Positions 1-59,447 of a stretch of 64,000 nt of DNA are shown piece after piece. Every line of letters begins with the position of its first letter. Within the stretch, counting starts at the first letter, position 1. Below the pieces are notes generated by a model. The model did no database searches and was not told where the DNA came from. It saw nothing but the letters and a program-made list of their open reading frames with translations. The stretch comes from a bacterium (GTDB taxonomy: Bacteria; SZUA-182; DTGQ01): positions 41,111 to 105,110 of the forward strand of contig JBFLZW010000041.1 of the NCBI GenBank assembly GCA_040755755.1. The letters are read 5' to 3'. The position numbers and the translations under genes were made by a program.

Positions 1-9
1 CTTAACGAG

Positions 10-118
10 GATGGTAAAAATAACCATCACCCCCACCCAGCCTCCCCTGCCACAGGGGCTCCCTGCCTCAAGGGGGAGGAGTGGAAGGGATGTTCCCATC
101 AAAGAAGGGGAACATCTG
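10..118. repeat. Dispersed intergenic repeat, family A (AACCATCACCCCCACCC type)
   Basis: This GC-rich stretch downstream of fmt contains AACCATCACCCCCACCCAG, then a CCTGCCACAGGGGC segment and a GGGAGG box, ending in a GATGTTCCC...GGGGAACATC inverted pair. Closely similar text recurs at 47560-47720 and 49868-49920 inside a coding gene, and related fragments occur at 24105-24130, 25385-25435 and 42275-42475. I see no gene in 1-130. Confidence 0.7.
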
Positions 119-4801: not shown

Positions 4802-4844
4802 TGGGGTTGTCCACAAATAAATAAAATACAAATACCAATACCAA

Positions 4845-4877
4845 CGACACCACAGAGGCACAGAGACACAGAGATAC
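4845..4877 (+). repeat. CACAGAG-type dispersed repeat (family B), copy 2
   Basis: The plus strand reads CACCACAGAGGCACAGAG followed by ACACAGAG, preceded by an AAATACAAATACC A-rich flank like that of the copy at 20918. It lies between uppP and ftsK, directly upstream of the ftsK start; relative to the gene it is in the opposite orientation from the other copies. Confidence 0.75.
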
Positions 4878-4924
4878 CCGGAGAAAAGACAGGGAGTAAT
4901 GTATTCATAGACAGCTCCATAACC

Positions 4925-20870: not shown

Positions 20871-20917
20871 CCCGTGCAGGATAAGGCAAAATACGAAATA
20901 CAAAATGAAAATACAAA

Positions 20918-20950
20918 GGACACCACAGAGACACAGAGGCACAGAGAAAA
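20918..20950 (+). repeat. CACAGAG-type dispersed repeat (family B), copy 3
   Basis: GGACACCACAGAGACACAGA followed by GGCACAGAGAAAA, with an AAAATACAAA flank, directly upstream of rfbD. It matches the reverse complement of 1171-1209 almost base for base. Confidence 0.8.
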
Positions 20951-20972
20951 GCGAAGATAGATCAGGGAGATC

Positions 20973-23061: not shown

Positions 23062-23145
23062 CCCCGTGGAGGGCACCCTCATCTCGTGGAAAATACACTC
23101 CCTCGCCCCTTGGGGGAGAGGGTTGGGGTGAGGGGGATGGCAGTT
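23062..23145. repeat. Family A-type repeat (CCCTCACCCCAACCCTCTCCC class)
   Basis: Between rfbB and rfbA. It contains CCCTCGCCCC...GGGGGAGAGGGTTGGGGTGA, a widespread type of bacterial intergenic repeat. Related text lies at 42370-42440 (other strand) and inside the GH2-like gene at 46640-46715. Confidence 0.7.
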
Positions 23146-24090: not shown

Positions 24091-24185
24091 ACGTTTTCCG
24101 TACGTTAGATGTTCCCCATCTTGTATAGAAGTATCCAATACACTATAATGATACAAGCAGTGGAGAACTTTCCAGGAGGCAAGCT

Positions 24186-24780: not shown

Positions 24781-25356
24781 ATGAATATTTATCATACCTC
24801 ACTCGAAGGAATACTGCTGATCGAGCCGCGTGTTTTCGAGGATTACCGGGGGTTCTTTCTGGAAACTTATCACCAGCGAAGGTTCCAGGAAGCGGGAATC
24901 AATCAGGCTTTTGTCCAGGATAACCATTCCCATTCCGTGCGGAATACGCTGCGGGGCCTGCACTACCAGCTTCAGCACCCGCAGGGGAAGCTGGTCTGGG
25001 TGGTGCGGGGCACGATCTTTGACGTGGCGATCGATATCCGCCGGGGCTCTCCGACCTTCGGCCAATGGCTCGGCGTCCACCTGAGCGCCGAGAACCACCG
25101 CCAGATATTCATCCCGGAAGGATTTGCCCACGGCTTTTGCGTCCTCAGCGACCAGGCTGACGTTATCTATAAGTGCACGGACCTCTATACCCCCGGAGAC
25201 GAGTACGGCATCCGATGGAACGACCCTGCCCTGGCCATCAACTGGCCGGTGCAGGAACCTGTCCTGTCGGAAAAGGATGCCCGCTACCCCGCCCTCGTCC
25301 AGGTGGAGGAAGATATGCTGCCCCGGTGGAAGGGGCGCACAGGGGCAGGGTTTTAG
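24781..25356 (+). CDS. rfbC: dTDP-4-dehydrorhamnose 3,5-epimerase
   Basis: Third enzyme of dTDP-L-rhamnose synthesis, a cupin of 191 residues. Family signatures are present: EPRVFEDYRGFFLETYH, QDNHSHSVRNTLRGLHYQ with the catalytic His in GLHYQ, and IPEGFAHGF; the DxRxxSPTFG motif is DIRRGSPTFG. AGGAAAG lies upstream of the ATG. It completes the rhamnose set, 30 bp after the toxin gene. Confidence 0.97.
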   Translation: MNIYHTSLEGILLIEPRVFEDYRGFFLETYHQRRFQEAGINQAFVQDNHSHSVRNTLRGLHYQLQHPQGKLVWVVRGTIFDVAIDIRRGSPTFGQWLGVHLSAENHRQIFIPEGFAHGFCVLSDQADVIYKCTDLYTPGDEYGIRWNDPALAINWPVQEPVLSEKDARYPALVQVEEDMLPRWKGRTGAGF

Positions 25357-25384
25357 GCAATGTATTGAATTTGCTGGCATTAAA

Positions 25385-25435
25385 GTTCCTCCCCCTTGAG
25401 GGGGGAGGTCAGGTGGGGGTGAATGATAGAATCCA
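25385..25435. repeat. Family A-type repeat
   Basis: TCCCCCTTGAGGGGGGAGG followed by GGTGGGGGTGAATGATAGAATCCACC. The second part is the reverse complement of the text at 42276-42300, showing inverted dispersed copies of one element. Confidence 0.7.
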
Positions 25436-25494
25436 CCTTGGATAGAGGAATAATTGGGAGTTCCCTTAAGTGCCTGGACCTGGAGAGTCCCTGA

Positions 25495-41245: not shown

Positions 41246-41476
41246 ATGATAAAAAATAATCGTTTTAAAAAGCAAAATTCAATGAATAAACAAAGAACTA
41301 TGACCACATCAGAAACTATGGAGTGCTTGCAAACTTCTAAGCCTGCTCTTTTGAAAATGGTTCATCAGGGTAAGATAAGAGCAAATAAGGCAGGACGTGA
41401 ATACCGTTTTTTAAAATCTGAGTTAGACCGATTTCTTTTAGGCGAAATCGAACCATTAAATGCTGCATCGAAATGA
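41246..41476 (+). CDS. Excisionase-type helix-turn-helix protein
   Basis: A 76-residue protein whose core (MTTSETMECLQTSKPALLKMVHQGKIRA, then GREYRFLKSELDRFL) is the HTH_17/excisionase MerR-like fold: helix-turn-helix followed by a two-strand wing. The start could be 41246 or an internal ATG at 41282. Despite the family name, no integrase or attachment site is visible nearby, so it may be a regulator of the downstream coiled-coil gene, which it overlaps by 4 bp. Confidence 0.75.
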   Translation: MIKNNRFKKQNSMNKQRTMTTSETMECLQTSKPALLKMVHQGKIRANKAGREYRFLKSELDRFLLGEIEPLNAASK

Positions 41477-41982
41477 TACCTAAGATCACATTCCCAAAAG
41501 AAATGGCTAAAAAGGTAGTCAAGAAAGTATCGCTGGAAGTAATCTATGAGGTACTTGAAGAGCGAAGCGCGGAAATCAAGGCGGATGTAGCTGAATTAAA
41601 AACAGATGTAAGGGAGCTTAAGCAAAAGCGGGAAGAGGATTTCCGGTGCCTGAACCAAAAGATTGATACTGAAATCGGACAGGTAAGGCAGGAAATCGGA
41701 CAACTGAACCAAAAGATTGATACTCAGATCGGGGGAGTAAGACAAGAGATAGGCCAGTTGAACCAAAAGATTGACACTGGAATCGGACAGGTAAGGCAGG
41801 AAATCGGCCAGTTGAACCAAAAGATTGATACTGAAATCGGACAGGTAAACCAGCGAATTGATACCCTTGGACAAAGAGTTGACAACTCAGGTACTCAATT
41901 AAATCAAAGAATGGATACCATCATACAGATGCTCATAGATATGAACCGGCAGTTAGTTGAAATAGCCAAACAGAAAAGCTAG
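41473..41982 (+). CDS. Coiled-coil protein built of 18-residue repeats
   Basis: A 169-residue protein of unknown function. After a basic N-terminus (MIPKITFPKEMAKKVVKKVS) and a Glu/Lys-rich helix, it has about 3.5 tandem 18-residue units NQKIDTEIGQVRQEIGQL at 61-78, 79-96, 97-114 and 115 onward, then a degenerate continuation (NQRIDTLGQRVDNS). The pattern of Ile/Val/Leu gives a long helix that should oligomerise. No membrane segment or signal peptide is seen. It is co-translated with the helix-turn-helix gene (ATGA overlap). It resembles small coiled-coil proteins paired with HTH proteins in other genomes, but I cannot name a family with certainty. Confidence 0.75.
   Translation: MIPKITFPKEMAKKVVKKVSLEVIYEVLEERSAEIKADVAELKTDVRELKQKREEDFRCLNQKIDTEIGQVRQEIGQLNQKIDTQIGGVRQEIGQLNQKIDTGIGQVRQEIGQLNQKIDTEIGQVNQRIDTLGQRVDNSGTQLNQRMDTIIQMLIDMNRQLVEIAKQKS
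41653..41865 (+). repeat. Tandem 54-bp repeats encoding the coiled coil
   Basis: Units at 41653-41706, 41707-41760, 41761-41814 and a partial one from 41815 are near identical at the DNA level, suggesting recent expansion by slippage or unequal crossing-over. Confidence 0.85.
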
Positions 41983-42274
41983 TCGGTCCCGGAAGGTGTC
42001 GTTACCACCATTCCGAGACCTGGCCTGCTCGACATGAGACTGTCGATACGGCGTATACACATCATTGCCCAAGAGCAAGAGAAGGGCAAAGGAAAATCCT
42101 TTCCCATCAAAACACACCAAAACGCACTATTTTCTCTGGGCGGATATTCCCTGAGGCCCTGGTTGGCAATACCAGCAGTGACACACACAGGGTGAGAGGT
42201 GTCGGGCCTATCCCATAAGCCAGGGCTGAAACCTGGATAAGTTATTGAGGGATATCCCAATTATTACACTACCC

Positions 42275-42475
42275 AAGGTGGATTCTCTCATTCACCCTTA
42301 CCCAGCATCCCCTGCCACAGAGGCTCCCTGCCTCAAGAGCATTTTCATTTGCATGAGGCTACTTACCAAAAAGCCCCCTCACCCCAGCCCTCTCCCCAAA
42401 GGGGCGAGGGAGAATTGTAGCCCTCTGAGCGGAGCGAGGGAGAAAAACATCTTCCTGAGCTCAATATCTCCTGGG
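42275..42475. repeat. Family A-type repeat cluster
   Basis: Contains CATTCACCCTTACCCAGCAT with CTGCCACAG(A/G)GGCTCCCTGC (shared with 10-118), then GGCTACTTACCAAAAAGCC and CCCTCACCCCAGCCCTCTCC with GGGGCGAGGGAGAA. The second half matches the segment at 46628-46715 inside the GH2-like gene. Confidence 0.75.
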
Positions 42476-42511
42476 CGAGAATTCCATCATAAAGCGAAAG
42501 CCCCCCATAAT

Positions 42512-42536
42512 CCACAGAGAGACACAAGGAGCAGAG
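42512..42536 (+). repeat. CACAGAG-type dispersed repeat (family B), copy 4
   Basis: CCACAGAGAGACACAAGGAG followed by CAGAG lies 8 bases upstream of the radical SAM gene; its AAGGAG could even act as a distant ribosome site. It is shorter than the other copies. Confidence 0.55.
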
Positions 42537-42543
42537 TACATAC

Positions 42544-43533
42544 ATGGAAGCCTGTATTATTGTGACCTATCGATGTAACGCAAAGTGCTATATGTGCAAT
42601 ACCTGGCAGTACCCGACCAGGCAGGAAGCCGAGATTACGCCGGACATCATGGCCAGGATCCCTTCCGGCTTGAAATTTCTCAACATCACCGGCGGCGAGC
42701 CGTTTCTGCGAAAAGATCTGGAGGAAATTATCAAGACTGTTCTTCCCAAAACCGCCCGTCTGGTAATCAGCACCAACGGGTATTTCACTGACAGGATACT
42801 GTCCCTGGCTGAAAAATACGGCAACCGTATTGGCATCCGTATCTCTATAGAAGGGCTGCCTGCGGCCAATGACGAGCTTCGCGGGATCAGGGATGGCTTC
42901 GATCATGGGCTGCGAACGCTCCTGTGCCTGCATGATATGGGAATGAAAGATATTGGATTTGGCATTACGGTCTCGGACAGGAATGCCAGGGACATGAAGG
43001 AGCTTTACCGGCTGGCCAAGGCCATGAGAATAGAGTTTGCTACTGCGGCGACCCATAATTCCTACTACTTCCACAAGAAAGACAACGGATTCCAGGATCC
43101 GGAAATGGTTGCCGGTGAATTTGAATGGCTGGCTGAGCAGATGCTGAAATCACGGAGAGTCAAGGAATGGTTCCGGGCATATTTTAACACCGGCCTGGCC
43201 AATTATGTCAGGGGCGGAAAACGCTTTCTTCCCTGTGAAGTGGGCACCGATGTATTTTTCCTGGACCCTTGCGGGGATATCCTGCCGTGTAATGGTCTCG
43301 ATGAGCCTTTGTCGATGGGCAATCTGAAAGAGCAGTCTTTCGAGGAGATATGGCATGGCAGGAGAGCGGAGGAAGTCAGGGCCAGTATCAGGAACTGCCA
43401 GAAGAACTGCTGGATGATCGGAAGTGCAGCCCCGGCCATGAAGAAGCGGATCGGGATTCCCCTCCAGTGGATTATCAGAAAAAAACTCCATCTGTCCACA
43501 AGTCACGCCCCCCAGAAGGCGCATGAATGTTGA
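42544..43533 (+). CDS. Radical SAM protein with SPASM-like C-terminal cysteines
   Basis: A 329-residue radical SAM enzyme. The [4Fe-4S]-SAM motif is C11-x3-C15-x2-C18 (CNAKCYMC), followed by ITGGEPFLRKDL (the GGEP motif) and STNGYFTD. A second cysteine set near the end (CEVG, DPCGDILPCN, NCQKNCWM) is SPASM-like and should bind auxiliary clusters. SPASM proteins modify peptides or sugars; in polysaccharide loci their substrates are mostly unknown. The start ATG follows a CACAGAG repeat; the stop overlaps the next glycosyltransferase by 7 bp, so the two are probably functionally coupled. Confidence 0.88.
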   Translation: MEACIIVTYRCNAKCYMCNTWQYPTRQEAEITPDIMARIPSGLKFLNITGGEPFLRKDLEEIIKTVLPKTARLVISTNGYFTDRILSLAEKYGNRIGIRISIEGLPAANDELRGIRDGFDHGLRTLLCLHDMGMKDIGFGITVSDRNARDMKELYRLAKAMRIEFATAATHNSYYFHKKDNGFQDPEMVAGEFEWLAEQMLKSRRVKEWFRAYFNTGLANYVRGGKRFLPCEVGTDVFFLDPCGDILPCNGLDEPLSMGNLKEQSFEEIWHGRRAEEVRASIRNCQKNCWMIGSAAPAMKKRIGIPLQWIIRKKLHLSTSHAPQKAHEC

Positions 43534-44729
43534 GTGGTAACGATAAATTGAAAATCCTGGTGTTGGGCACCCGCGGGATACCGGGCATCCAGGGAGGGGT
43601 TGAGCGCCACTGCGAGCAGCTTTACCCCAGAATCGCTGCCAGAGGCCACTCGGTTTTTCTCTGTACGAGAACGCCCTATGTGAAAGACAAGACACCTTTC
43701 TATAAGGGTATCAACTTAATCCATTGCTATGCTCCCAGAAATAAAAGCCTGGAAGCGATCACTCACACCTTCATCGGGTTGATGAGGGCGCGGCTGATTT
43801 CGCCTGACGTCGTCCATATTCATGCTATCGGGCCATCGCTTCTGACTCCGGTGGCCAGGCTGCTCGGCCTGCGGGTGGTTGTGACCAATCATGGCCCGGA
43901 TTATGACCGGCAAAAATGGGGGAAGGGAGCAAAGTTTATTTTGAAGCTCGGAGAGAAATTGGGAGGGCTGTATGCTGATGAAGTGATTGTCATCTCCCGG
44001 GTGATTCAAAATATCATCCGCACCCGGTGCCATCGGGAGGCGGTTATCATTCCGAATGGGGTAGAGTTTCCTTCTCAGAGCAGCCGGACAGATTTTCTTG
44101 CCAAATGTGGCCTTTTTCCCGGTAACTATATTTTAACCGTGGGCAGGTTTGTCCCTGAAAAAGGCTTTCATGATCTTATCGACGCTTTCACGGGAAATTT
44201 CACCGATAACTTCGGCAACTTCGGGAGCGATTTCAAGCTGGTAATCGCAGGTGATGCCGATCATGAAACTCCCTATAGTGCATCCTTACGGGAGAAAGCC
44301 AGGCAGGATAAGCGGATCGTTCTTACCGGCTTTATAACCGGCGAGGAGCTCAACCAGATTTATCATCACGCCCGCTTGTTTGTACTGCCTTCCTATCATG
44401 AAGGGCTGCCCCTGGCCCTGCTCGAAGCGTTGAGCTACGGCCTGTCAGTGCTGGTGTCGGACATTCCGGCCCATAGGGAAATCGGGCTCAGCAGCCGCAG
44501 ATACTTCCATCACGGGAATATTTCTGATTTGCGGGCAAAGATAAAGCTTCTCCTCAAAGAGCCCCTGCCGGAGGATGAGAAGCAGGCAATGATGCGGCAG
44601 ATAGAAAAACGATACAATTGGGACCGAATAGCCGATCAAACGCTCGATGTCTACCGAAGAGCAATTAATGGAGGCCTTGTTTCGAAGGAAATACATCCCT
44701 GTTCCGACAAGAATACTATACGGATCTGA
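43527..44729 (+). CDS. GT4-family glycosyltransferase (DUF1972-like N-terminus)
   Basis: A 400-residue GT-B transferase beginning KILVLGTRGIPGIQGGVERHCEQLYP, the pattern of rhamnosyl- and related transferases with the DUF1972-type acceptor domain. The donor domain has TVGRFVPEKGFHDLIDAF, PSYHEGLPLALLEALSYG with an intact E-x7-E motif, and an Asn/Phe/Gly-rich insertion (about 224-236, FTGNFTDNFGNFG). Overlap with the radical SAM gene implies coupled translation. Confidence 0.92.
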   Translation: MLSGNDKLKILVLGTRGIPGIQGGVERHCEQLYPRIAARGHSVFLCTRTPYVKDKTPFYKGINLIHCYAPRNKSLEAITHTFIGLMRARLISPDVVHIHAIGPSLLTPVARLLGLRVVVTNHGPDYDRQKWGKGAKFILKLGEKLGGLYADEVIVISRVIQNIIRTRCHREAVIIPNGVEFPSQSSRTDFLAKCGLFPGNYILTVGRFVPEKGFHDLIDAFTGNFTDNFGNFGSDFKLVIAGDADHETPYSASLREKARQDKRIVLTGFITGEELNQIYHHARLFVLPSYHEGLPLALLEALSYGLSVLVSDIPAHREIGLSSRRYFHHGNISDLRAKIKLLLKEPLPEDEKQAMMRQIEKRYNWDRIADQTLDVYRRAINGGLVSKEIHPCSDKNTIRI

Positions 44730-44909
44730 GTTTCCTTCCGGGATTATGGCCTGATGTGATTGGATTGTCTTTGAATTTTCTCATGAACAGACCCTGCTGA
44801 ACATTTCCAGATAAATTATCCATTATCGAGCACGGTATACAAGAACAGTTACACCAGCCCATTACTAACTTATAGCGGTCACAGGGGCAGGTAAGGGGGG
44901 ACACCGATA

Positions 44910-46334
44910 ATGCTCAAGCACTACTCATACGGGATCAAGCGGGCGATCATGCTGGTCGATGTGATGATACTCCTGTTTGCCTATTACGTCTCGATCATGT
45001 TACGCTCTACCCTCCTGGGGGGTGTGGGCAACAGTCCGGGGTTTGAGAACCTGGTCTGGGTGCTGCTCGTTTCAGCTTTCATTGTCCCGTACAGCTTTTC
45101 GATGAACGGGGTATACGATTTTCACTACAAGACATTCTGGCAGTGCGCGAACAAGATATTGTTTTCACACCTCATTAATCTTATGGTTATCACTCTGATA
45201 GTCTACCTGCTGCGGGTTCAGCATTTCAGCCGCTTTTTCATGCTGGACTTTGTCCTGATCTCGGTGAGCCTGCAGTCGCTCTTTCGTATCTGCATCAAAC
45301 GAAGGCTGACTGATCTTCGGCTTCGGGGGTACAATTACCGCCGGACATTGATTGTCGGCATGACCGAGGCGGCCCGCAGGATCACTTCGAGTATCGAACA
45401 GAATATTCACTGGGGTCTTCGGGTCGACGGCCTGATTAAAGAGGATGACAATGACGATGAAGGCAACTTCCCTCCAGCCCAAAAATATCCCATATTGGGC
45501 ACGCTTGCGAATCTGAAGGAAATCCTGTTGCGGGAGGTGGTGGACAATGTCATTTTCTGCACCAGCCGGAAAGAGATTGCCGACCTGAAAGGCATTATCC
45601 TCGACATCGAGGCCATGGGCATATCTTCGCATGTGGCCATTGCCAATCCTGCGGTCAGGATTTCCAGCACGTTTTTAGGCAATATCGACGGGATACCCCT
45701 CATTACCTATTCTCCGGTCAAGCTCAGCCCCTTTGATCATATGGTGAAAAACATTGTTGACCTTGTGGGCGGGATTATGGGTTTTACGATTTTCCTCATC
45801 CTGTATCCGGTAATCGGGGCAGCCATCAAGCTTGAGTCCCGGGGGCCGGTGCTGTTCAAACAGAAGCGGATGGGAGAGAATGGCCGGATATTCACCCTGT
45901 ATAAATTCCGGTCGATGTACCAGGATGCCGAGCGGCGCAAAGCGGAACTGATGGCCAAAAATCAGCTCCAGGGAGCGGTGTTCAAGATGGTGGATGACCC
46001 CCGGATCACCAGGGTCGGCAAGTTTTTGAGAAAATTCAGCCTGGATGAGTGGCCCCAGTTCATCAATGTCCTGAAACGGGAAATGTCGCTGATCGGCACC
46101 CGCCCTCCGACGCTGGATGAGGTGGAAAAGTATGACCTGTGGCATAAACGGCGGCTGTCCATGAAGCCCGGATTGACCGGACTGTGGCAGATCAGTGGGC
46201 GAAACACGATCACCAATTTTGACGAAATCGTCAAGCTGGACCTGAAATATATCGATAACTGGTCTTTGTGGTATGATTTCTACATTATGCTTAAAACCGT
46301 ACTTGTCACCTTGAAGCGGGAAGGAGCATATTAA
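44910..46334 (+). CDS. WbaP/WcaJ-type undecaprenyl-phosphate sugar-1-phosphate transferase
   Basis: The initiating enzyme of polysaccharide synthesis: transfers a sugar-1-phosphate to undecaprenyl phosphate at the inner membrane. It has 474 residues: four N-terminal membrane helices, a CoA_binding_3-type Rossmann domain (RRTLIVGMTEAARRITSSI), a fifth helix or re-entrant hairpin (IMGFTIFLILYPVIGAAIKL), and the Bac_transf catalytic domain with KQKRMGENGRIFTLYKFRSM, LRKFSLDEWPQFINVLKREMSLIGTRPP and KPGLTGLWQISGR. The first sugar (glucose or galactose type) cannot be told. G-rich SD precedes the ATG. Confidence 0.94.
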   Translation: MLKHYSYGIKRAIMLVDVMILLFAYYVSIMLRSTLLGGVGNSPGFENLVWVLLVSAFIVPYSFSMNGVYDFHYKTFWQCANKILFSHLINLMVITLIVYLLRVQHFSRFFMLDFVLISVSLQSLFRICIKRRLTDLRLRGYNYRRTLIVGMTEAARRITSSIEQNIHWGLRVDGLIKEDDNDDEGNFPPAQKYPILGTLANLKEILLREVVDNVIFCTSRKEIADLKGIILDIEAMGISSHVAIANPAVRISSTFLGNIDGIPLITYSPVKLSPFDHMVKNIVDLVGGIMGFTIFLILYPVIGAAIKLESRGPVLFKQKRMGENGRIFTLYKFRSMYQDAERRKAELMAKNQLQGAVFKMVDDPRITRVGKFLRKFSLDEWPQFINVLKREMSLIGTRPPTLDEVEKYDLWHKRRLSMKPGLTGLWQISGRNTITNFDEIVKLDLKYIDNWSLWYDFYIMLKTVLVTLKREGAY

Positions 46335-46338
46335 CTGC

Positions 46339-49300
46339 TTGAGCTGGTTGAAGCAGAGTATTTGCCTGATGCTTGATTTCCGGAGGAGCCAAAGCCAGAG
46401 GGTTTTGGCTTTTTTCTTGCCGGTTCTGCTCTGGGTGGTACCGATTCTGCTCACCGTGGTGTTAGTTCTCTTCTCCGTGCTGCCACTTTTTCTCTTCATG
46501 CCTCCTGATAGTGTGGCCAAGACGGCTCAGTCGGCGATCCAGGCAGGAACGTCCCCGGCCCGGCAGTCAGAAATGTCTCTGGCACAGACAGGAACGTCCT
46601 TGGCACAGGAGGGCAATGTAAGTCACTTTAGGCTACTTACCAAGAAAGCCGCCCCTCACCTGCCACAGGGTCTCCCTGCCAGCCCTCTCCCCAGAGGGGC
46701 GAGGGAGAAAAACGCTGCCCCGGACTCAATATCCACCTTTAAGTTAATAACAGTGGCACAGGCAGGAGGAACGTCCCCGGCCCAGGCAGAGAGGGGACCC
46801 CTGACCCGGCCGGGAATGGTCCTGAACCAGGATTGGGAAGTCGCCGAAGCACCTGATCTTGACTATGCTGCCTATTGCTCGCAATGGCAAACGCTTGCCT
46901 GGAAAAGGATCGGCCGCCTGCCGCTTATTCAGCATTACCGGGAACCAAACCACTGCGCCTGGTACCGAAAAAAATTCTCCCTGGATAACCGCCTCCTGTC
47001 AGCGGAAGGAAAGGGAAAGTCCCTCCGGCTGACCTTTACCGATGTTCGCCACCTGGCCAGGATTTACCTGAACGGCAGGCTGGCAGGTGAGCATTTTGGC
47101 GGATACCTCCCCTTTTCCCTGGAGTGCGGCCACCTGCTGCAGACAGGGGAAAACGAGCTGGTAGTCGGTGTGCAGGACTGGACATCGGCCATCAGCGCAG
47201 AGGCCATCGGGGCAGGGAAATACCAGGGGCAGGGGCAAGGCTATGGGTCTTCCTCCGGGAACATCAATCCCCTGCGGGAAGCCCAGGGCATCCCGGCGGG
47301 TGATTATGCGGTGCCAAGCTATCCGGGATTTCCCGAACCGGGAACGATCATTGCCCCGATCGGCAGCAGTCACCGCAGGGCTGGAATCTGCGGCCAGGTG
47401 TATCTGGAAGCCATCCCCGATATTCGTATCGGGGAAGTGATCATCGAGCCGAAGCTTGACCAGCACAAGATCAGGGTGAAGGTCGGGATCGAGGCCAACC
47501 TCACAGGCGGCGGGCAGAGGGCAGCAAAGCCTGACGGGAAGGCGGACGAGAAGGGTGAAAATAACCATCACCCCCACCCAGCCTCCCTCCTCAAGGGGGA
47601 GGAGAGTAATGGAGGCTCACTCCTCAAGGGCAATGTCATTAACTTAGAGCAGCGATTTTCCTCCTCGCCCCGGCCCTCTCCCCTCAAGAGGGATAGTGAA
47701 TGCTCCCATACAAGATGGGGAATATCCGAAAGGAAGCCATTGACTGTGACCTTTTGGTTGCGGGAGGTGGGGCTGTTGAATGAAGCCGGGGCAGGAAAAC
47801 ACCGGACCCCACAATACCGGAAAATCGGCCAGGCCACCGTCGAGCAGTTTGAGCAGAATCTGCAGGGTGAGCAGTATGTACAGGCTGCCGAAGGACAGAC
47901 CTGGCTCATCTTCGAGGCAGAGCTTGAAAATGCGCAGCTCTGGGACCTCGATCACCCATTCCTGTACCAGATGAAAGTTACTCTTCAGGAAGGCACCGGC
48001 CAGGGGAAGTCTCTGGATGAGGGGAAATCGCCGAATCAGGGGAAAGGCGTTGCTGAGAACGTCATTGATGAGATGGAGGTCCGGTACGGATTGCGGGACT
48101 GGCGAACCGAAGGGCCGTATTTTATTCTGAATGGAGACAGGATCAATCTTAAGGCGGCATCCATCATTTACGACAACAGCCTGACGGAAGATGAGCTGAG
48201 GCGAAGGATTCATCATCTGAAGGAGGCTCATATCAATCACCTTCGTTTCCATAGTGAACCGCCGCCACCCTTCATACTGGATGTGTGCGATGAAGAAGGA
48301 ATGCTGGTAACTGTGGAGTCGGCCATCTATGGATCATACGTGGGCAGATACGATACCTCATTTACCAGCGAATTCTGGCAGCATGCCAGAGAGCATTGGC
48401 AGGGGCTGGTCAGAAGAGACAGAAATCACCCCTGTGTCATCATCTGGTGCATCGAGAACGAAAGCGTGGAATACGATGCAGGCCGCGGCGGAGAGGTCCG
48501 GTTCATGGAGCTTGGCATGGAGGTCAGGCGGCTTGATCCCCAGCGGCCAATCATGTATGAAGGGGGTATGGATTGCTTTGGCCTGGGTGATATCATTAAC
48601 CTGCATTACCCCCACGAATTTCCCTTCTGGAACTGCCTGCCGAATGACGCATGGTGGCTGGAGCAGGCAAAGGGAGGGGGAAGCCGGAAAGGAAAGAAAA
48701 AGGCTGCCCCGGCTGCAGGTGGTGAGGCGGTGGACCGGAGCGCCGTGGCCGGTGATGAGCCAATGGACCGGAGCTCCGTTATTGGGGAAGATACAGTGGG
48801 CGGCAATGCCATTGCAGGCGACGGGTCAGCGGTCTGGAATGCCAGAGCATATGACGTCTGCCTGCAGGAAGAGTGGCCAAAGCGGGATTGGGAGGGTAAA
48901 GGGATATACCTTGACTCCCTGTGGCGATGGCAGCCGGAGTACAGGTTCTGCTGGAAAAAAGATAAGCCGCTCTATCTGGGAGAAGAGCTTTACCTGCCAA
49001 CCACCACACCTGACCCGTATACCATTTTAATCGGTGATGATGCATATACGAGTAAGGACTGGAGAGCGGATAAAGATCAGGGGCAAGGACAGATGGAGTC
49101 GCAGCAACGACACCAAGAGCAGCAGCAATGGCAACGGCAGGAGGAGCGGAAAGGAGCTGTCTGGCGGTATTACCTCGAGGCCTACCGGCAGGCAGGTGTC
49201 TCAGGGGTCTGTCCCTGGGTGATAACCGGCGAAGAGAGAAAGGATAACCCCTTGTATCGTGCCTGTCAGGAGAGTTTTCAGCCGGTTGCGGTTTTTATCA

Positions 49301-51522
49301 AAGAGCATAATAACCGATTCTGGGAGGATGAGGAAGTCACCAGGACTGTTACTGTCTGCAATGATGAACGAAGAGACAGAAGCAAAGGTTTTCCTCTGGA
49401 GTCCCTGCCTCTGAAGTATCTTTCCCCAGTTGGGGATAACCGGCAGGCTGGAGATGCCTTCATCCTGGAGTGGCAGGTAGTATCATCATCGCCAGCTTCG
49501 GATAGCGGGACAGATAAGAGCGGTATAGCCTGCATAGCCCAGGGCAGGCAAACCTTTCTTCTTCCTCCCGGGCACAGGAAGGCAACAGCCATGAGGTTCA
49601 AAATCCCCAAAGTCACCCAGCCAGGGCTTCAGCGGGAAAGATGGCAATTGCAGGTCAAGGTGAGCAAGAATGGACGGATACGGGATGAAAAGTCATGGGA
49701 CATATGGGGATACCGGAAAGATGTGGGAAAAATTGCCAATACCCTTTGTGGGACGCCCATTTTCCTGTACGATCCGGATGGCACGACAGCCGAAGTTTTG
49801 ACCAGGGCCGGAGTCAAGTATCAAAGGATAGAACCCGATGGTTCCCATTTCCCCCTTATCGAGAGGAAAGTTGATAATAACCATCCCCCCCACCCAACAT
49901 CCCCCGCCACATCTGAAGCTGGCCTGTTGATTCTGGGCAGAAATGCCTTCTCCTGTCTGGAAGGGAAAAAGACATCGATCGGCGTCAAGCCCCCCTGGCA
50001 GGAGCAGATTGACCGCTTCGTAAGCCGGGGAGGGGTACTGATCGCCTTTGAGCAGGAATTTCTCCCTGCCTGGCTGCCTGGCGGGATTACGGCAAACGCT
50101 CTGCACCATTCAACTATGGCTTTCCCCGGACGATGCGGCCATCCCCTTCTCAATGAAGAAATGACGGCTGAAAACCTGCGGTTTTGGGGCAGCGATAATT
50201 TTATCTCGCGCTATGATCTTAACCTGCCGGAGTCCGGGAATTATCGGAGCATTGTGGATAGCGGCGGCATGGGAGGACTGATTTATTCCCCCCTTCTGGA
50301 AATCACCCGGCAGGAAGGGGCCATGATTTTTTGCCAGATGCTGGCCATAAAGAAATGGGAGCCCGAACCGATGGCCAGGGTGCTGTTAAAAAACATCCTG
50401 TCGTATGCGGCGGAAAAAGCACGCGCAAAAAGTAGCCCGTACCAGGTTGCCGCTCAGGAGCAGGAGAGGATAGAGACTCGATCCTCCAGGAGCGGGACGT
50501 CCTCCTCGATCAGGGTGGGCGGGATATTCGGCAGGGGCGAAAATATCATGGTGTTTGACGGCCAGGGCGCAAACTGGGAGCACTTTGGCCAGGACCGGGA
50601 TGAAATCCTGGCCTTTGTCAAAGCAGGAGGAAAGGTTCTCCTGCGCGAAATCGATGAAGAGAGTATCCGGTGGGTGCAGAAGGTTCTGCCGGTCGATTTG
50701 AAAAAGATACAGCCGGAGGAGATGCCGGTAGGGGTAAGAGAAAGGGATGTGGCCGCCCCTGCAAACTGGCCGGGCAATTTCCGCGCCGTGTACTTGGCCC
50801 TTTACAACAGGGACGTATACTGGGTCGAGCCGCACTCGGAATTCCGGTACGATCGGGCTGACTTTGACCGGGGAATTGCAGATTATGCACTTGAGGTTCA
50901 GGATGCAACTAACGATGGGGATGGGGATATCGGAAACAGGGATTTTCGGGTGATCTCCTGGACCAGACCAAACGTCCTGATCGAGCTGGACTATGGCCAG
51001 GGATTTTTTCTGATCGATCAGGTAAAATGGCCCGCAGAATGGGCGCGGGGAGGATTTAACGAAGCAAGGGCAAAAAGATACGCATCCTCGGTCCTGCACT
51101 ATCTTGGCGTGACAATGCAGGAGAAAAAAGCCCCGGCAGAGGAAATCCTCATTCAGGCGGAGAACATGAGCTGCCGCACACCCGGCCAACCCCTCATCAG
51201 ATGCCGCAGCCATGACTACTGGACCCTGTGCAGCAATAATTATATCAGCGATACCGTATATTTTGGGGCTCCCGGCGAGTATGCCTTTACCGTCAGAGCC
51301 AAATGCCGACGGCCCGATTCACCGCCTGTCATGGTTTTGACGATAGACGGTTTAACTGCCGGCATGCAGGTTGTTCCCTCGCTCTCCTGGGACAGTTTCC
51401 GGTTTGCTGCCTGGGTGGAAGAGGGGGAACACGAGGTTTCTTTGAGCCTGGTGAATGCAGAGAATCCATATGGGGAAAAATATCTGTATGTGGACTGGCT
51501 CAGGATCGGAAATACACCTTAA
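46339..51522 (+). CDS. Membrane-anchored glycoside hydrolase family 2-like protein with repeat-derived insertions
   Basis: A 1727-residue protein with one N-terminal membrane segment (about 22-53), so the bulk is periplasmic or extracellular. Next comes a GH2 sugar-binding jelly roll (about 155-360, ARIYLNGRLAGEHFGGYLPF), an Ig-like part, then the TIM barrel (about 590-900) with the acid/base in WCIENES (N707-E708) and a probable nucleophile at E882 or E883 (LGEELY). A long region of beta and flavodoxin-like segments follows, and the C-terminus (about 1600-1720) looks like a CBM35/malectin-type carbohydrate-binding module. It probably trims or degrades the locus's polysaccharide. Several stretches are low complexity or are translated copies of genomic repeats (about 94-137, 407-465, 1176-1190; Gln/Gly-rich at 288-305, 555-572 and 907-935). 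The start is TTG at 46339, five bases after the previous stop, or ATG 46369. Confidence 0.8.
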   Translation: MSWLKQSICLMLDFRRSQSQRVLAFFLPVLLWVVPILLTVVLVLFSVLPLFLFMPPDSVAKTAQSAIQAGTSPARQSEMSLAQTGTSLAQEGNVSHFRLLTKKAAPHLPQGLPASPLPRGAREKNAAPDSISTFKLITVAQAGGTSPAQAERGPLTRPGMVLNQDWEVAEAPDLDYAAYCSQWQTLAWKRIGRLPLIQHYREPNHCAWYRKKFSLDNRLLSAEGKGKSLRLTFTDVRHLARIYLNGRLAGEHFGGYLPFSLECGHLLQTGENELVVGVQDWTSAISAEAIGAGKYQGQGQGYGSSSGNINPLREAQGIPAGDYAVPSYPGFPEPGTIIAPIGSSHRRAGICGQVYLEAIPDIRIGEVIIEPKLDQHKIRVKVGIEANLTGGGQRAAKPDGKADEKGENNHHPHPASLLKGEESNGGSLLKGNVINLEQRFSSSPRPSPLKRDSECSHTRWGISERKPLTVTFWLREVGLLNEAGAGKHRTPQYRKIGQATVEQFEQNLQGEQYVQAAEGQTWLIFEAELENAQLWDLDHPFLYQMKVTLQEGTGQGKSLDEGKSPNQGKGVAENVIDEMEVRYGLRDWRTEGPYFILNGDRINLKAASIIYDNSLTEDELRRRIHHLKEAHINHLRFHSEPPPPFILDVCDEEGMLVTVESAIYGSYVGRYDTSFTSEFWQHAREHWQGLVRRDRNHPCVIIWCIENESVEYDAGRGGEVRFMELGMEVRRLDPQRPIMYEGGMDCFGLGDIINLHYPHEFPFWNCLPNDAWWLEQAKGGGSRKGKKKAAPAAGGEAVDRSAVAGDEPMDRSSVIGEDTVGGNAIAGDGSAVWNARAYDVCLQEEWPKRDWEGKGIYLDSLWRWQPEYRFCWKKDKPLYLGEELYLPTTTPDPYTILIGDDAYTSKDWRADKDQGQGQMESQQRHQEQQQWQRQEERKGAVWRYYLEAYRQAGVSGVCPWVITGEERKDNPLYRACQESFQPVAVFIKEHNNRFWEDEEVTRTVTVCNDERRDRSKGFPLESLPLKYLSPVGDNRQAGDAFILEWQVVSSSPASDSGTDKSGIACIAQGRQTFLLPPGHRKATAMRFKIPKVTQPGLQRERWQLQVKVSKNGRIRDEKSWDIWGYRKDVGKIANTLCGTPIFLYDPDGTTAEVLTRAGVKYQRIEPDGSHFPLIERKVDNNHPPHPTSPATSEAGLLILGRNAFSCLEGKKTSIGVKPPWQEQIDRFVSRGGVLIAFEQEFLPAWLPGGITANALHHSTMAFPGRCGHPLLNEEMTAENLRFWGSDNFISRYDLNLPESGNYRSIVDSGGMGGLIYSPLLEITRQEGAMIFCQMLAIKKWEPEPMARVLLKNILSYAAEKARAKSSPYQVAAQEQERIETRSSRSGTSSSIRVGGIFGRGENIMVFDGQGANWEHFGQDRDEILAFVKAGGKVLLREIDEESIRWVQKVLPVDLKKIQPEEMPVGVRERDVAAPANWPGNFRAVYLALYNRDVYWVEPHSEFRYDRADFDRGIADYALEVQDATNDGDGDIGNRDFRVISWTRPNVLIELDYGQGFFLIDQVKWPAEWARGGFNEARAKRYASSVLHYLGVTMQEKKAPAEEILIQAENMSCRTPGQPLIRCRSHDYWTLCSNNYISDTVYFGAPGEYAFTVRAKCRRPDSPPVMVLTIDGLTAGMQVVPSLSWDSFRFAAWVEEGEHEVSLSLVNAENPYGEKYLYVDWLRIGNTP
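46625..46725. repeat. Family A-type repeat inside the GH2-like gene, copy 1
   Basis: GGCTACTTACCAAGAAAGCC, CCCTCACC, CAGCCCTCTCCCC and GGGGCGAGGGAGAAAAAC are shared with the intergenic copy at 42353-42460, yet here they are read in frame. Confidence 0.8.
47560..47720. repeat. Family A-type repeat inside the GH2-like gene, copy 2
   Basis: AAAATAACCATCACCCCCAC followed by CCAGCCTCCC is identical to 18-47 over about 30 bases; CTCAAGGGGGAGGAG is also shared. It is translated as a His/Pro-rich segment NNHHPHPASLLKGEE. Confidence 0.85.
49868..49920. repeat. Family A-type repeat inside the GH2-like gene, copy 3
   Basis: ATAATAACCATCCCCCCCAC followed by CCAACATCCCCCGCCACATCTGAAG, a shorter relative of copy 2 and of 18-118, translated in the same frame as copy 2 (NNHPPHPTSPA). 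Confidence 0.8.
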
Positions 51523-51562
51523 AGGAAGGAAGTTTGCGTGAATTGCTGAAGAGGTAAGCTGC

Positions 51563-53836
51563 TTGTCGGATAGAATAATAAAATACGGCTTGATATTCCT
51601 GATTATTTACTGCCCGCTGGCCTTTGGGTCGGTGCACATTTTTTCTTTTACCCTGATGGAGATCGTGGTCCTTGGGCTCTGTCTGTGCTGGCTGATGCAG
51701 CAGCTCTTTCAGCGCAGGGTGATGAGGTCTGAATCCAGGGGAGGGGTGGTGTGCGGGGGCGGGAGAGAGCTTGCGGTACGCAAAAGTCCATTGAATTATT
51801 TTATTCTGTCATTCATCGGCCTGATCGTTATTCAATGCCTGCCCTGGCCTGCCTCGTGGGTGAAGATGGTTTCTCCGGGAACATACGGGCTTTACCGCCA
51901 GGCATGGGGGAAAGTGCCTGCTTTCATAACCCTGTCTATCTATCCTTACGGCTCGAAGATCGGTCTTTTTCAGGTCCTGGCCTATGCGGGAGCTTTTTTC
52001 CTGATCATCAACTGGGCGGACACAAAGGAGCGGATCAAGGCCCTGGCAGGCTCTTTTGTGCTGATCGGCTCCATCGAGGCAATCTATGGGCTCTTGATGT
52101 ACCTGGGAAAGTATCATCGGATTTTCTGGTATGAAAAGATCTGGTACCGCGACAGTGTCACCGGCACCTATATTAACCGCAATCACCTGGCAGGGTTACT
52201 GGAAATGGCCATACCGATTGCCTTTGGGCTTCTTGTGGCCATCTCCGGCGGCGGGGGAGAGCGGGAGAATCAAAGAAGGGGAAAAGGCGGCGGGCCGGGC
52301 GGGATCAGGGGCTTTCTGCTGTCTTTGAATATCGACGATCATGAGCAGGCCAGAAAAGTGCTGCTGATCTTTCTCATGTCCATCATGACCCTGGCCCTTA
52401 TGCTTTCCGGGTCCCGTGGCGGCATCCTTTCACTGGCAGCGGCCTTTATCGTTATGAGCACCCTCCTGTTTTTCCGGCGCAGGGGAAGGAAATATGCGCT
52501 GGCAGGACTGGCCATCGTGCTCATCGCTCTGGGATACGGGCTGATAACCGGCCTGAATACGACCATCAAACGGTTCGGGCAGATAAACGACGATGCTCAA
52601 ACGAGGCTCCGCTATGCCAGTACATCTCTGGATATTGTGAGGGATTTTCCTCTGCTTGGTACCGGCTGGGGGACCTTTGGAGAAGCCTACCGGAGATATC
52701 AGGGGCCAAAGGACAGTTATCTGGTGATCGACCACGCACACCATGACTGGGTGGAATTGGGTGCCGAGATGGGCTGTATAGGACTTGGGATGGTGATTCT
52801 TTCCCTCCTGTTCTGCCTGGGACATTTTCTCTCTCTCTGGAAAAACAGGAAAAACAGTGTCAGCCTCGGAATCGGCCTTGGCGGTATCGGGGCCATCCTT
52901 TCCCTGGCCCTCCACAGTTTTACCGATTTTAACCTGCACATCCCGGCCAATGCCCTGCTCTTTGGCATGGCAGCGGGAATCACGCTGAGTGCGCTCACCT
53001 GCAACCGCCACTCCAGGAGAGAGGAAAGCACGGCCCCGCAAGATCAGCAGCGGATACAGAGGAAATCGGATAAGATGAGCCTGCATCTTCCCGGCTGGCT
53101 TCGCTGGCCGCTTGCCGTGCTCGGCACAGCGGGTTTTAGTCTGGCGGCAGTACTGGTGTGGAAGCCCTATCAGGCTGAAAAGGTTTTGCCTACTCTGCCC
53201 GACAGTACCCTGGGAAAAAGCAAAGAACCTGCTCTGGAGGAAGTTTGTACAGCGATTTCCCGGGAACCCGGCAATGCAGAGTACTTCTACCGGCTGGCTT
53301 TACTTTTGGAACAGAGCGAGCAACAGGGGGGCCAGCAGCAGCATGAGCGGCAGCAGGATGAATATGATCGGGCACTGGTTGACAGGGTGTTTGCTCAGTT
53401 GAAGGATGATGCGGCAAAACGCGGGGAAACAGGGGATGACCCCATATTTCTGGCCTTACGGAAAGCCATCTTGTTGAATCCGGCAAACCCTCACTACCAT
53501 TTAAATATGGCCTGGCAGAAAGTCAGGCCCGAAAAGCTGATCGATGCGGACCAGCGTACCTTATCGTCCTTACTCGCTGAGGCCGAAGAGGGGTTTGGCC
53601 GGGCGGTGTATTTTATGCCGCAGTCGGCACAAATCAATCTTTCCGTAGGAAGCTACTGGCTCTGGAAGTCAAAAGTGGTGGAGGAGGAGACAGCCTATCT
53701 CCATGCTTTTGACCAGTTTGTCCGCTGCTTCCGGACAGCCTACAGGATCAACCCCGATTACAGGACGCAGATTCAGCAGATGGTCCGGCAATACTATCCG
53801 GTCGATGATATTCTGGCCAGAATTTTTTCGACGTGA
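51563..53836 (+). CDS. O-antigen ligase/polymerase-like membrane protein with C-terminal TPR-like domain
   Basis: A 757-residue protein. Residues about 5-500 contain 10-12 membrane helices and the PF04932 core, including YINRNHLAGLLEMAIPIAFG, SGSRGGILSLAAAF and GTGWGTFGEAYRRYQGPKDSYLVIDHAHHDWVELGAEMG, the large periplasmic loop with His residues. A soluble C-terminal part (about 550-757) has TPR-like helices (EYFYRLALLLEQ, FLALRKAILLNPANPHYHLNMAWQK). This architecture is known for EPS-type polymerases/ligases. It starts at TTG with GAGGT eight bases upstream. It is the second Wzy-like protein of the locus; one may polymerise and the other ligate, or two polymers may be made. Confidence 0.86.
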   Translation: MSDRIIKYGLIFLIIYCPLAFGSVHIFSFTLMEIVVLGLCLCWLMQQLFQRRVMRSESRGGVVCGGGRELAVRKSPLNYFILSFIGLIVIQCLPWPASWVKMVSPGTYGLYRQAWGKVPAFITLSIYPYGSKIGLFQVLAYAGAFFLIINWADTKERIKALAGSFVLIGSIEAIYGLLMYLGKYHRIFWYEKIWYRDSVTGTYINRNHLAGLLEMAIPIAFGLLVAISGGGGERENQRRGKGGGPGGIRGFLLSLNIDDHEQARKVLLIFLMSIMTLALMLSGSRGGILSLAAAFIVMSTLLFFRRRGRKYALAGLAIVLIALGYGLITGLNTTIKRFGQINDDAQTRLRYASTSLDIVRDFPLLGTGWGTFGEAYRRYQGPKDSYLVIDHAHHDWVELGAEMGCIGLGMVILSLLFCLGHFLSLWKNRKNSVSLGIGLGGIGAILSLALHSFTDFNLHIPANALLFGMAAGITLSALTCNRHSRREESTAPQDQQRIQRKSDKMSLHLPGWLRWPLAVLGTAGFSLAAVLVWKPYQAEKVLPTLPDSTLGKSKEPALEEVCTAISREPGNAEYFYRLALLLEQSEQQGGQQQHERQQDEYDRALVDRVFAQLKDDAAKRGETGDDPIFLALRKAILLNPANPHYHLNMAWQKVRPEKLIDADQRTLSSLLAEAEEGFGRAVYFMPQSAQINLSVGSYWLWKSKVVEEETAYLHAFDQFVRCFRTAYRINPDYRTQIQQMVRQYYPVDDILARIFST

Positions 53837-56846: not shown

Positions 56847-59447
56847 ATGAGTACTTCATCGAATATTATGAGTTACTGGGATTACTGGGGTAAGGCCCGA
56901 CCTTCAGAGGGGAGTGGCCCGACCTTTCACTTATTGCCATATCATTCTTTGGACGTAGCTGCGGTAGCTGCCCACTGGCTGAAAGCGGATGAAGCCCTGA
57001 TGCGCTCTTTTCTTCGCAGTGGCGATGGTATTGAAGAGCATATACTCAAGGCATGGGTATTGTTTTTTGTTGCGCTCCATGACTTGGGTAAGTTTGACAT
57101 ACGGTTTCAGCTTAAGGCACGAGATGTTGCACTTAACCTCAATCCGCTATTTTCTGAAGCCGACGCTTCTGAGGCGAAAGATTTTGACCATGGATCAGCA
57201 GGATTGAATTGGTTTATCAGAGAATTGCCTGACCTTGGATTCGATGGCGAGGTTATTGAAGCCCTGCAGTATTGGATGATAGCCGTTTTCGGGCATCACG
57301 GAAGAGGTTTGTATACAGGAAAAATTTCTCGACCAGGAGCCGATGATGCGGTAATTGAACATAATCGGCAAGCCCGGCGTGAGTGGAGTGAGATGCTTCG
57401 CAAGCTCTTCCTTACACCTGGAGGCATCCAGCGAGGGGATGTTCCGCCTGTTATTCCTCTTGTTCCTGAGCGCTTGGCTGGGTTCTGCTCTGTTTGTGAT
57501 TGGCTGGGGTCGAATACTGATTTTTTCCCTTATGAAGATAAGCCGGACCAGGACTTAAATGAGTATTTCCTGAACCGTCAAACGCTGGCTGAAAAGGCGC
57601 TGTATGCCAGTGGTATGTTAAGAAGCCCCTGCCGGACAGGCGGCATGAATAGGCTATTCCCTGAACTTACAGCGAGAGGTATCCAGTCCCTTGCGGATGA
57701 ATGGCCCAAAGAGCCTGGACTGACCCTCATTGAAGCCCCTACCGGATCGGGAAAAACCGAAGCTGCACTTGCCTATGCTTCAAGGCTCTTAGCCGCAGGA
57801 TTGGCTGACAGTATCATATTTGCCCTGCCTACCCAGGCCACCGCCAATGCCATGTTGTCAAGGCTTGAAAAAGTCGCTGGGAAGCTTTTCCCTGGAGGTG
57901 GGAATGTAGTTCTGGCACACGGGCAAGCCAGATTCAACCGCGACTTTATTCAGTTGAAAGATAGAGCCTATGGAACATCTGTCCAAGGTGGGGAAGAAGC
58001 TTTCGCCCAATGTGCCAAGTGGTTAGCCGCCAGCCGCAAAAGAGTATTTTTAGGACAGGTTGGAGTTTGTACGATCGATCAGGTGCTTTTGTCTGTTTTA
58101 CCCATTCGCCATCACTTTATCAGAGCATTCGGGGTCCGCAAGAGTGTCCTGATCATTGATGAAATTCATGCCTATGACAGCTATATGAATGGCCTTTTGG
58201 ACATTGTTTTAAAAGCACAGCGTATGGCGGGTGGTTCTGCCATTTTACTATCCGCCACTTTGCCGTCCAGACGCAGGGAACAACTCTTTGCAGTCTGGGG
58301 TGTGCAGAGCAATGAATCAGAAAAGGGAAATGCCTATCCATTAGTCAGTCATGCTGGAAATAGCGGGCAAAGCGGACAGAGTGGGCAAAGTATATGGGAG
58401 TCTCCTGAGCTTCTGGAAGAGTACAAGGTGGAAGTCTTGTGCGAGAAATCTGAGGAAATGCTGCCACAGCAGTCTTTGCTTGATGAAATTGTCCATGCAG
58501 CCAGATCAGGGGCGAGAGTAGTCGTTATCTGCAATCTGGTGGCCGAGGCGCAAAAGCTGGCTCGAAGGCTCAGGGAAATTTCTGGTATCGGAGTAGACTT
58601 GTTTCACTCCCGCTTTCGTTTTTGTGATCGGCAGAGAATCGAAGCACAGGTTTTATCAGGCTATGGGAAAGAGCGAAAAAATAACGAGGGGCGCATTCTG
58701 ATAGCGACGCAGGTAGTGGAGCAAAGTCTGGATCTTGATTTTGATTGGATGATCACTCAACTTTGTCCTGTGGATTTGCTCTTTCAGCGTCTTGGCAGGT
58801 TACACCGCCATTCCCGGCAGCGCCCTGCCGGTTTTGAACCGGCCCGCTGCATTGTCCTGGTTCCAATCGGAGAGGATTACGGCAGACATACGGCAATCTA
58901 TGGAGACATCCAGGTCCTTTGGCGTACTCAGAAACTCCTGGAGCGCTCCCCAATAATATCTTTCCCTGGCGCTTATCGCGAATGGATTGAGGCAGTTTAT
59001 GGTGATGAGAGCTGGCCACAGGAGCCTGAATATATTACTATGGCGCATCAAACCTTTATGGATAGCGAAGACGCAAAAAGGTTTTGCGCTCTGAACCTGG
59101 GCAGAGCGGATGCCAATCTGCTTGCTGATACTGACGGCAATGTGGCTGCTCTTACCCGCGATGGGGAAATGAGTCTGAGTGTCATACCGGTGGTGATGAA
59201 GAAAGGAAGACACTGCTTCCTTGACGGTACTGCGCTGGACAGCATTGATGAGCGGGAAGTCGACGAGGCTCTGAATCTGCAAGCCATTCCTGCCCCTCAC
59301 TCATGGCGGTATTCCCTGCCAGAGAGTGAGGATGGGTTGTATTATTTGCCTATGGAATCAGACTCACATGGCGGATGGATATCCAGAATAAAAAAATCCA
59401 CGTTTACTTATCATCCGGATTTCGGATTAGAAAGAGGTGAACTATGA
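56847..59447 (+). CDS. cas3: Type I-E CRISPR-associated helicase-nuclease Cas3
   Basis: Effector nuclease-helicase recruited by Cascade to degrade target DNA. It has 866 residues. The N-terminal HD nuclease has H33 (PYHSLDVA), H78-D79 (ALHDLGKF), DHGSAG and FGHHGRG. The SF2 helicase has Walker A TGSGKT (299-304), DEIH (438-441), the LLSATLPS motif III and QRLGRLHRH motif VI. A small Gly/Gln/Ser repeat (GNSGQSGQSGQS) sits near residue 507. The nuclease and helicase are fused in one chain, as usual. GGAG precedes the ATG; the stop overlaps cse1 by 4 bp. It is the first gene of the operon, likely driven from 56710-56737. Confidence 0.97.
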   Translation: MSTSSNIMSYWDYWGKARPSEGSGPTFHLLPYHSLDVAAVAAHWLKADEALMRSFLRSGDGIEEHILKAWVLFFVALHDLGKFDIRFQLKARDVALNLNPLFSEADASEAKDFDHGSAGLNWFIRELPDLGFDGEVIEALQYWMIAVFGHHGRGLYTGKISRPGADDAVIEHNRQARREWSEMLRKLFLTPGGIQRGDVPPVIPLVPERLAGFCSVCDWLGSNTDFFPYEDKPDQDLNEYFLNRQTLAEKALYASGMLRSPCRTGGMNRLFPELTARGIQSLADEWPKEPGLTLIEAPTGSGKTEAALAYASRLLAAGLADSIIFALPTQATANAMLSRLEKVAGKLFPGGGNVVLAHGQARFNRDFIQLKDRAYGTSVQGGEEAFAQCAKWLAASRKRVFLGQVGVCTIDQVLLSVLPIRHHFIRAFGVRKSVLIIDEIHAYDSYMNGLLDIVLKAQRMAGGSAILLSATLPSRRREQLFAVWGVQSNESEKGNAYPLVSHAGNSGQSGQSGQSIWESPELLEEYKVEVLCEKSEEMLPQQSLLDEIVHAARSGARVVVICNLVAEAQKLARRLREISGIGVDLFHSRFRFCDRQRIEAQVLSGYGKERKNNEGRILIATQVVEQSLDLDFDWMITQLCPVDLLFQRLGRLHRHSRQRPAGFEPARCIVLVPIGEDYGRHTAIYGDIQVLWRTQKLLERSPIISFPGAYREWIEAVYGDESWPQEPEYITMAHQTFMDSEDAKRFCALNLGRADANLLADTDGNVAALTRDGEMSLSVIPVVMKKGRHCFLDGTALDSIDEREVDEALNLQAIPAPHSWRYSLPESEDGLYYLPMESDSHGGWISRIKKSTFTYHPDFGLERGEL

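Follow-up and report, generated by a model that had tools for sequence, protein, structure and literature searches.

Palindromic repeats dispersed between and inside genes of an uncultured bacterium, with one family read in a single frame

The in-frame spread of selfish palindromes through protein-coding genes has been described mainly from Rickettsia. The Rickettsia palindromic elements (RPE; Ogata et al. 2000, 2002; reviewed in PMC10969869 and PMC2229807) are palindromes of ~105-150 bp fused in frame to many genes of that genus, and their target duplication is given as unknown (PMC2229807). ERIC/RU-1, YPAL/RU-2 and the 107-bp Correia/NEMIS elements are MITEs whose open frames are fused in frame to genes (PMC2229807), and REPs measure 20-40 bp (PMC3733652). 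Here we describe two families of palindromic repeats from a lineage that is uncultured and has a larger genome. The window, the whole 64,000-nt stretch that was analysed, is C41:41111-105110 of a draft assembly of one strain (G000; 5.26 Mb, 88 contigs), and positions without a contig name refer to it.

Repeat-encoded segments of a GH2-like protein

The starting point was a stretch of a GH2-like gene, 46618-46750, which the first-pass annotation had found to share its text with an intergenic region at 42353-42460. The features of this gene are as follows.

46339..51522, plus strand: GH2-like host gene, 1727 aa, predicted TTG start (open reading frame; Pfam GH2_N, GH2 and GH2_C; orthologues)
46402..46500, plus strand: hydrophobic anchor or signal segment, residues ~22-54 (Kyte-Doolittle up to 2.9 over 19 residues)
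46601..46609, plus strand: TGGCACAGG, left copy of the 9-bp direct repeat that flanks insertion 1, a possible target duplication or linker repeat
46611..46758, plus strand: insertion 1, the reported stretch, a family A copy with imperfect inverted ends GGGCAATGTAAGTCACTTTAGG / CCTTTAAGTTAATAACAGTGGC, residues ~92-140
46754..46762, plus strand: TGGCACAGG, right member of the direct repeat, at a spacing of 153 nt (51 codons)
47546..47728, plus strand: insertion 2, a family B copy lacking its left end, with family A nested in it, residues ~403-464 (repeat match)
47629..47648, plus strand: left end of family A, GGCAATGTCATTAACTTAGA, within insertion 2 (pattern match at G000:C41:88739-88758)
49835..49915, plus strand: insertion 3, a truncated family B copy in that family's in-gene frame (DGSHFPLIERKVDNNHPPHPTSP) (repeat match)

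Local alignment of 46611-46758 with 42350-42480 matched 46629-46709 to intergenic positions 42356-42414 with a single mismatch and three gaps (1, 2 and 18 nt). The score of 62 lies far above the maxima for random window segments (31; n = 1,457) and shuffles (28), and all three strings quoted in the first-pass annotation were found at both places. Searched against its own genome, 46615-46760 gave 52 matches including itself, the others at E values from 4e-23 to 0.2, and a strict core pattern of the stretch occurred exactly six times versus none for its reversed control. The reading frame runs uninterrupted from the TTG at 46339 to 51522, so that the gene does stay open across the repeat, and the hydrophobic segment lies directly upstream, in agreement with the proposed position just after a membrane anchor. 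Residues 94-137, the proposed extent, are encoded by repeat sequence, but these borders are slightly too narrow and are better drawn at 46611-46758.

We compared the protein with orthologues from a genome of the same genus (G001, MAG HOT.CON.50, contig JAILZY010000002.1; a 1557-aa frame, ~66% identity over aligned pieces) and one of the same order (G004; a 1513-aa frame, ~50%). Insertion 1 is missing from both, together with the whole surrounding linker of ~100 residues, and neither orthologue carries the same residues without the DNA repeat. The linker around the insertion is itself repetitive (CTGGCACAGA occurs nearby), and GGCACAGG occurs only at 46602 and 46755 within 46301-47000. The stalk as a whole (46540-46790) is made of related 27-nt units (CAGGCAGGAACGTCC...) that are missing in the orthologues; judged by these units, it is a linker expansion in its own right, specific to this species. 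Because the linker is repetitive and the other family A copies do not fix a duplication length, the reported stretch is likely, though not proven, to be an insertion, and since the linker is also missing in the relatives, the arrival of the A copy cannot be separated from linker growth. Misassembly is an unlikely source of the pattern because it recurs on many contigs.

Insertions 2 and 3 belong to family B and not to the repeat first reported. Insertion 2 adds ~60 residues between a pair of strands in the middle GH2 domain, where the matching loop is empty in both orthologues; the region of insertion 3, residues ~1167-1193, is variable in all three aligned proteins. The gene thus holds a single A copy, in the stalk that follows the membrane anchor, and two more distal B copies, one of which occupies an inter-strand loop; EKNAAPDSISTFK lies at a host-insert junction in the protein. 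An AlphaFold2 model of residues 140-773, built on a two-sequence alignment, was uninformative (mean pLDDT 32.5) and was not used.

Anatomy and distribution of the two families

Our census covered stretches amounting to ~40% of the genome. In 1.22 Mb of contigs covered end to end or nearly so, we counted 36 family A and 31 family B copies; a DNA-level search found 52 B copies in 2.12 Mb, a wider set partly picked for known matches, and a further count of family A gave 50. Family A copies are GC-rich palindromes, CCCCTCACC...CAGCCCTCTCCCC NN AGGGGCGAGGGAGAAAAACGCTGCCC, whose inverted ends of ~20 bp, such as GGGCAATGTCATTAACTTAAGG, are imperfect; comparing copies did not fix the borders of the family or a target duplication. 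Family B has a consensus of 123 bp (CAGATGTTCCCCAT...ATGGGGAACATCTG), carries 14-bp terminal inverted repeats, CAGATGTTCCCCAT at both ends, and has no transposase gene of its own. Its ends matched the genome 77 times at no more than one mismatch, versus once for the reversed control. Family A is nested in B in GH2 insertion 2 and also between genes at C67:60758-61049, where B ends surround A ends. The window holds the following further copies.

1..118, plus strand: intergenic family B copy with both terminal repeats, starting 24 bp before the window (G000:C41:41087-41228)
23093..23136, minus strand: intergenic family A core (repeat match)
24106..24140, plus strand: lone family B end, TAGATGTTCCCCATCTTGTATAG (end-pattern match)
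25306..25469, minus strand: intergenic family B-like copy (repeat match)
42356..42470, plus strand: intergenic family A copy compared in the first-pass annotation (repeat match)

Among 18 full-length rows representing 17 distinct copies, the two flanks of family B agreed at 56% over 9 bp, versus 27% when flanks were re-paired among copies, and none of 5,000 permutations reached 56%. Agreement was lower at lengths of 7, 8 and 10 bp. Three copies have perfect 9/9 duplications, one of which lies inside FliK with AACACACCC on both sides. Family B is a MITE: it is short, present in many copies, and bounded by 14-bp terminal repeats and a 9-bp target duplication. Long terminal inverted repeats together with a 9-bp duplication are typical of DDE transposition.

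We looked for an element that could mobilise family B. In 1.4 Mb, some B ends form pairs at distances of 0.7-3 kb, and the list of ends from the whole genome consists mainly of element-sized pairs; among end pairs up to 3 kb apart, no transposase flanked by B-like ends was identified. Y1_Tnp gave six matches in the genome, two of them near repeat copies: of the Y1_Tnp genes (RAYT/IS200-like) at G000:C1:257590-257916 and G000:C30:113724-114026, the first lies ~1.2 kb from a B copy and the second between two A copies. Relatives that have the elements and relatives that lack them both include genomes with Y1_Tnp, so that its distribution showed no link with a RAYT partner.

The complete 123-bp B element is nearly confined to its own species, and the same-genus genome gave three partial matches. 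Its inner core, CACCCCCACCCAGCCTCCCCCCTCAAGGGGGAGG, occurs widely across the class, with different ends (GGTAACCATTCAGTCC) around it in another genus. The inner palindrome CACCCCCACCC-CCTCCCCC-TCAAGGGGGAGG is common to the class (loci in G002, G003, G005 and G008) while the terminal repeats differ by genus, as though several sets of ends shared a single inner core. Matches in plasmid records were restricted to a 33-48 nt piece of the core. A function as an RNA hairpin was considered and set aside: insertions 1 and 2 fold no better than dinucleotide shuffles (z = -0.39 and -0.45), and Rfam covariance models gave no match at gathering score in window 42000-52000.

Other features were seen in passing. 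A third interspersed repeat, CACCACAGAGACACAGAGGCACAGAG, occurs in both orientations at 4830-4896, 20903-20969 and 1166-1230, and similar text lies near family A copies elsewhere (L027, L030). Four tandem 54-bp units of 18 residues each occupy 41651-41894 within a short ORF (41473-41982). At 56847-59447, a Cas3 helicase-nuclease gene is followed by further genes, possibly a CRISPR-Cas locus.

Reading frame of in-gene copies and insert-free relatives

Coding status was judged by ORF length, codon signal and homology. By these measures, 12 family B copies lie inside genuine genes, drawn from the 52-copy search and from more divergent copies in the 1.22-Mb census. The hosts, compared with Pfam, are listed here.

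C1:73582: adenine methylase
C1:112321: Mu I-like protein
C18:153111 and C18:155146: FliK, two copies
C19:3342: RNase-H-like protein (198 aa)
C22:60579: NB-ARC ATPase
C30:119271: 2215-aa protein
C41:28024: FHA protein
Window 47546-47728 and 49835-49915: GH2-like gene, two copies
C50:70313: polyketide synthase, linker between carrier and reductase domains
C69:64707: HEAT-repeat lipoprotein

A thirteenth candidate, C6:81142, has the same frame in an ORF with a weak coding signal and was left out of the count. ORFs that cross B antisense or in another frame were dismissed as shadow ORFs, having a weak codon signal on a flank or running antiparallel to a homologue-bearing or long coding frame (C22:1489-1989, C30:1645-2433, C49:573-1430, C1:73378-73869, C1:111570-112892, C18:151593-153809, a 176-aa frame on the minus strand of C50, and window 24802-25782, minus strand). 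On C50, a 938-aa frame (L204:8901-11714; G000:C50:68901-71714) has KR, ACP and the beginning of a reductase domain fused straight to a GMC oxidoreductase; since these two parts are separate frames in G003:C372, it looks like a deletion fusion or a misjoin.

All 12 in-gene copies are read on one strand and in one frame, as DVPHFPFLDEEGENNHHPHPASPLKGEE... (DVPHFPFLDEEGENNHHPHPASPLKGEESNGGSHTRWGTS or variants). The B consensus is open in three of its six frames, and if these were equally likely a result of 12/12 would have a probability of (1/3)^12 = 2e-6. The in-gene frame gives the most hydrophilic and acidic peptide, with a GRAVY of -1.39 (versus -0.45 and +0.69 for the other open frames) and a net charge of -5. 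It is open in 7/7 copies in genes versus 2/14 intergenic copies of at least 70 nt (Fisher p = 3e-4), the other two frames being open in 13/14 and 14/14 of the latter. Net gains in genes, counted for B with both ends plus the 9-bp duplication, were 132, 183, 183, 213 and 255 nt, all multiples of three, versus 5/13 copies between genes (Fisher p = 0.04). Family A has five internal copies in genes, all on the same strand, in GH2 (insertion 1), FliK, a DEAD/UvrD helicase, a C30 protein and a polysaccharide export protein, where the copy lies just after the signal peptide. A frame restriction was looked for in these five and not found, the core being read in more than one plus frame.

Several hosts are 57-77% identical to relatives outside the inserts. 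In G001, the orthologues of the methylase, the Mu I-like gene and the 2215-aa protein have no insert at the matching place, and the RNase-H-like gene of G002/G003 has none near the N-terminus. Alignments with relatives show empty in-gene B sites for five genes in all, these four and GH2. In the relatives of the polyketide synthase, FHA and HEAT hosts, other and unrelated linkers are present, and no site is cleanly empty; the NB-ARC host, with no homologue in the four genomes, offers no empty site.

These observations bear on three other readings. The inserts could have been domesticated, the peptide being kept for a function (as an acidic, flexible linker, for example, or through metal binding by an HHPHP motif) that would explain the single frame. 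The frame is better kept in genes than between them, and several copies do lie in stalks and inter-domain linkers; but the hosts are unrelated, sites in relatives are empty, copies differ freely in length and sequence, and tolerance alone would also favour the least disruptive open frame. We regard this reading as improbable, a useful peptide being a possible but not a needed cause of the frame bias. Still less probable is that the linkers came first, the intergenic copies being gene fragments or convergent low-complexity sequence: the repetitive, species-specific linker around insertion 1 fits such an origin, yet for family B it is already contradicted by intergenic copies with intact terminal repeats and target duplications and by the same DNA at ~85-95% identity in unrelated hosts. 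That the hosts are pseudogenes or the inserts assembly artefacts, so that open frames mean little, is hardly credible even for a draft of 88 contigs, given open frames of 198-2777 aa, most with a coding signal on both sides, the identity to relatives outside the inserts of several hosts, in-frame net lengths, target duplications, and the recurrence of the pattern across many contigs.

Probable mobile palindromes and their relation to known systems

We consider it highly probable that A and B are mobile palindromes that spread between and inside genes, with in-gene B copies kept only as hydrophilic in-frame linkers. The data contain two dispersed families, the MITE anatomy of B, in-frame copies in unrelated genes, a single frame for B, and insert-free relatives. 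On this explanation, the stretch in the GH2-like gene would be one copy of a set of short, non-autonomous palindromes that lie mostly between genes and sometimes within them, with family B as a selfish MITE that is probably moved by a transposase acting in trans. Insertions would hit genes in all frames and on both strands, and one into a gene can keep the frame because B plus its duplication makes 132 bp (44 codons) and three of the six frames are open. Selection would then remove copies that shift or stop the frame or that add a hydrophobic or basic segment, leaving, in loops and inter-domain linkers, those whose strand and frame yield the peptide that is most acidic and hydrophilic. Family A would behave similarly, with one strand in its five in-gene copies and mixed core frames. 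Proteins with inserts would be made and tolerated. The idea in the first-pass annotation that a self-spreading repeat enters genes and survives as linker therefore holds most strongly for family B, with its 12 in-gene copies in one frame, target duplication and insert-free relatives, and less so for the family A stretch that prompted it.

A bolder version, which we put forward only tentatively and think doubtful, is that B is tuned for genes, its whole-codon net size and harmless peptide being traits that the element itself has evolved and that lower the cost of landing. If true, B would be able to multiply within coding DNA in the form of interspersed protein inserts, in a lineage without a tie to Rickettsia. 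Protein growth by mobile DNA can be tested here from sequence alone because recent copies show duplications, empty sister sites and frame bias. Gene-family models and structure predictions for such genomes should be expected to hold repeat-derived inserts.

Of the described systems, REP/BIME-RAYT resembles the present one in its interspersed GC-rich palindromes and in the Y1_Tnp genes of the same genome. REPs are extragenic, whereas B has long terminal inverted repeats, makes a 9-bp duplication and sits in genes, and Y1_Tnp showed no association with its ends; we therefore do not assign B to this group. ERIC, YPAL and Correia/NEMIS are likewise short, non-autonomous and open in frame with genes; the fusions emphasised for them often create an ORF or lengthen one, adding signal peptides or membrane segments, whereas internal one-frame insertions dominate in family B. 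The closest likeness is to RPE: palindromes with terminal inverted repeats and an open frame, found between genes and in frame within unrelated genes (12 B and 5 A copies here). Unlike RPE, the 9-bp target duplication is demonstrable, the net length is 44 codons, close relatives have empty sites, and the host genome is 5.26 Mb, while that of the RPE host is reduced and the host intracellular. The likeness is one of description: the A and B elements work like an RPE, which is a narrower claim than being one. New features are the lineage, a 9-bp duplication demonstrated inside a gene, a net length in whole codons, statistics on the reading frame, and relatives with empty sites.
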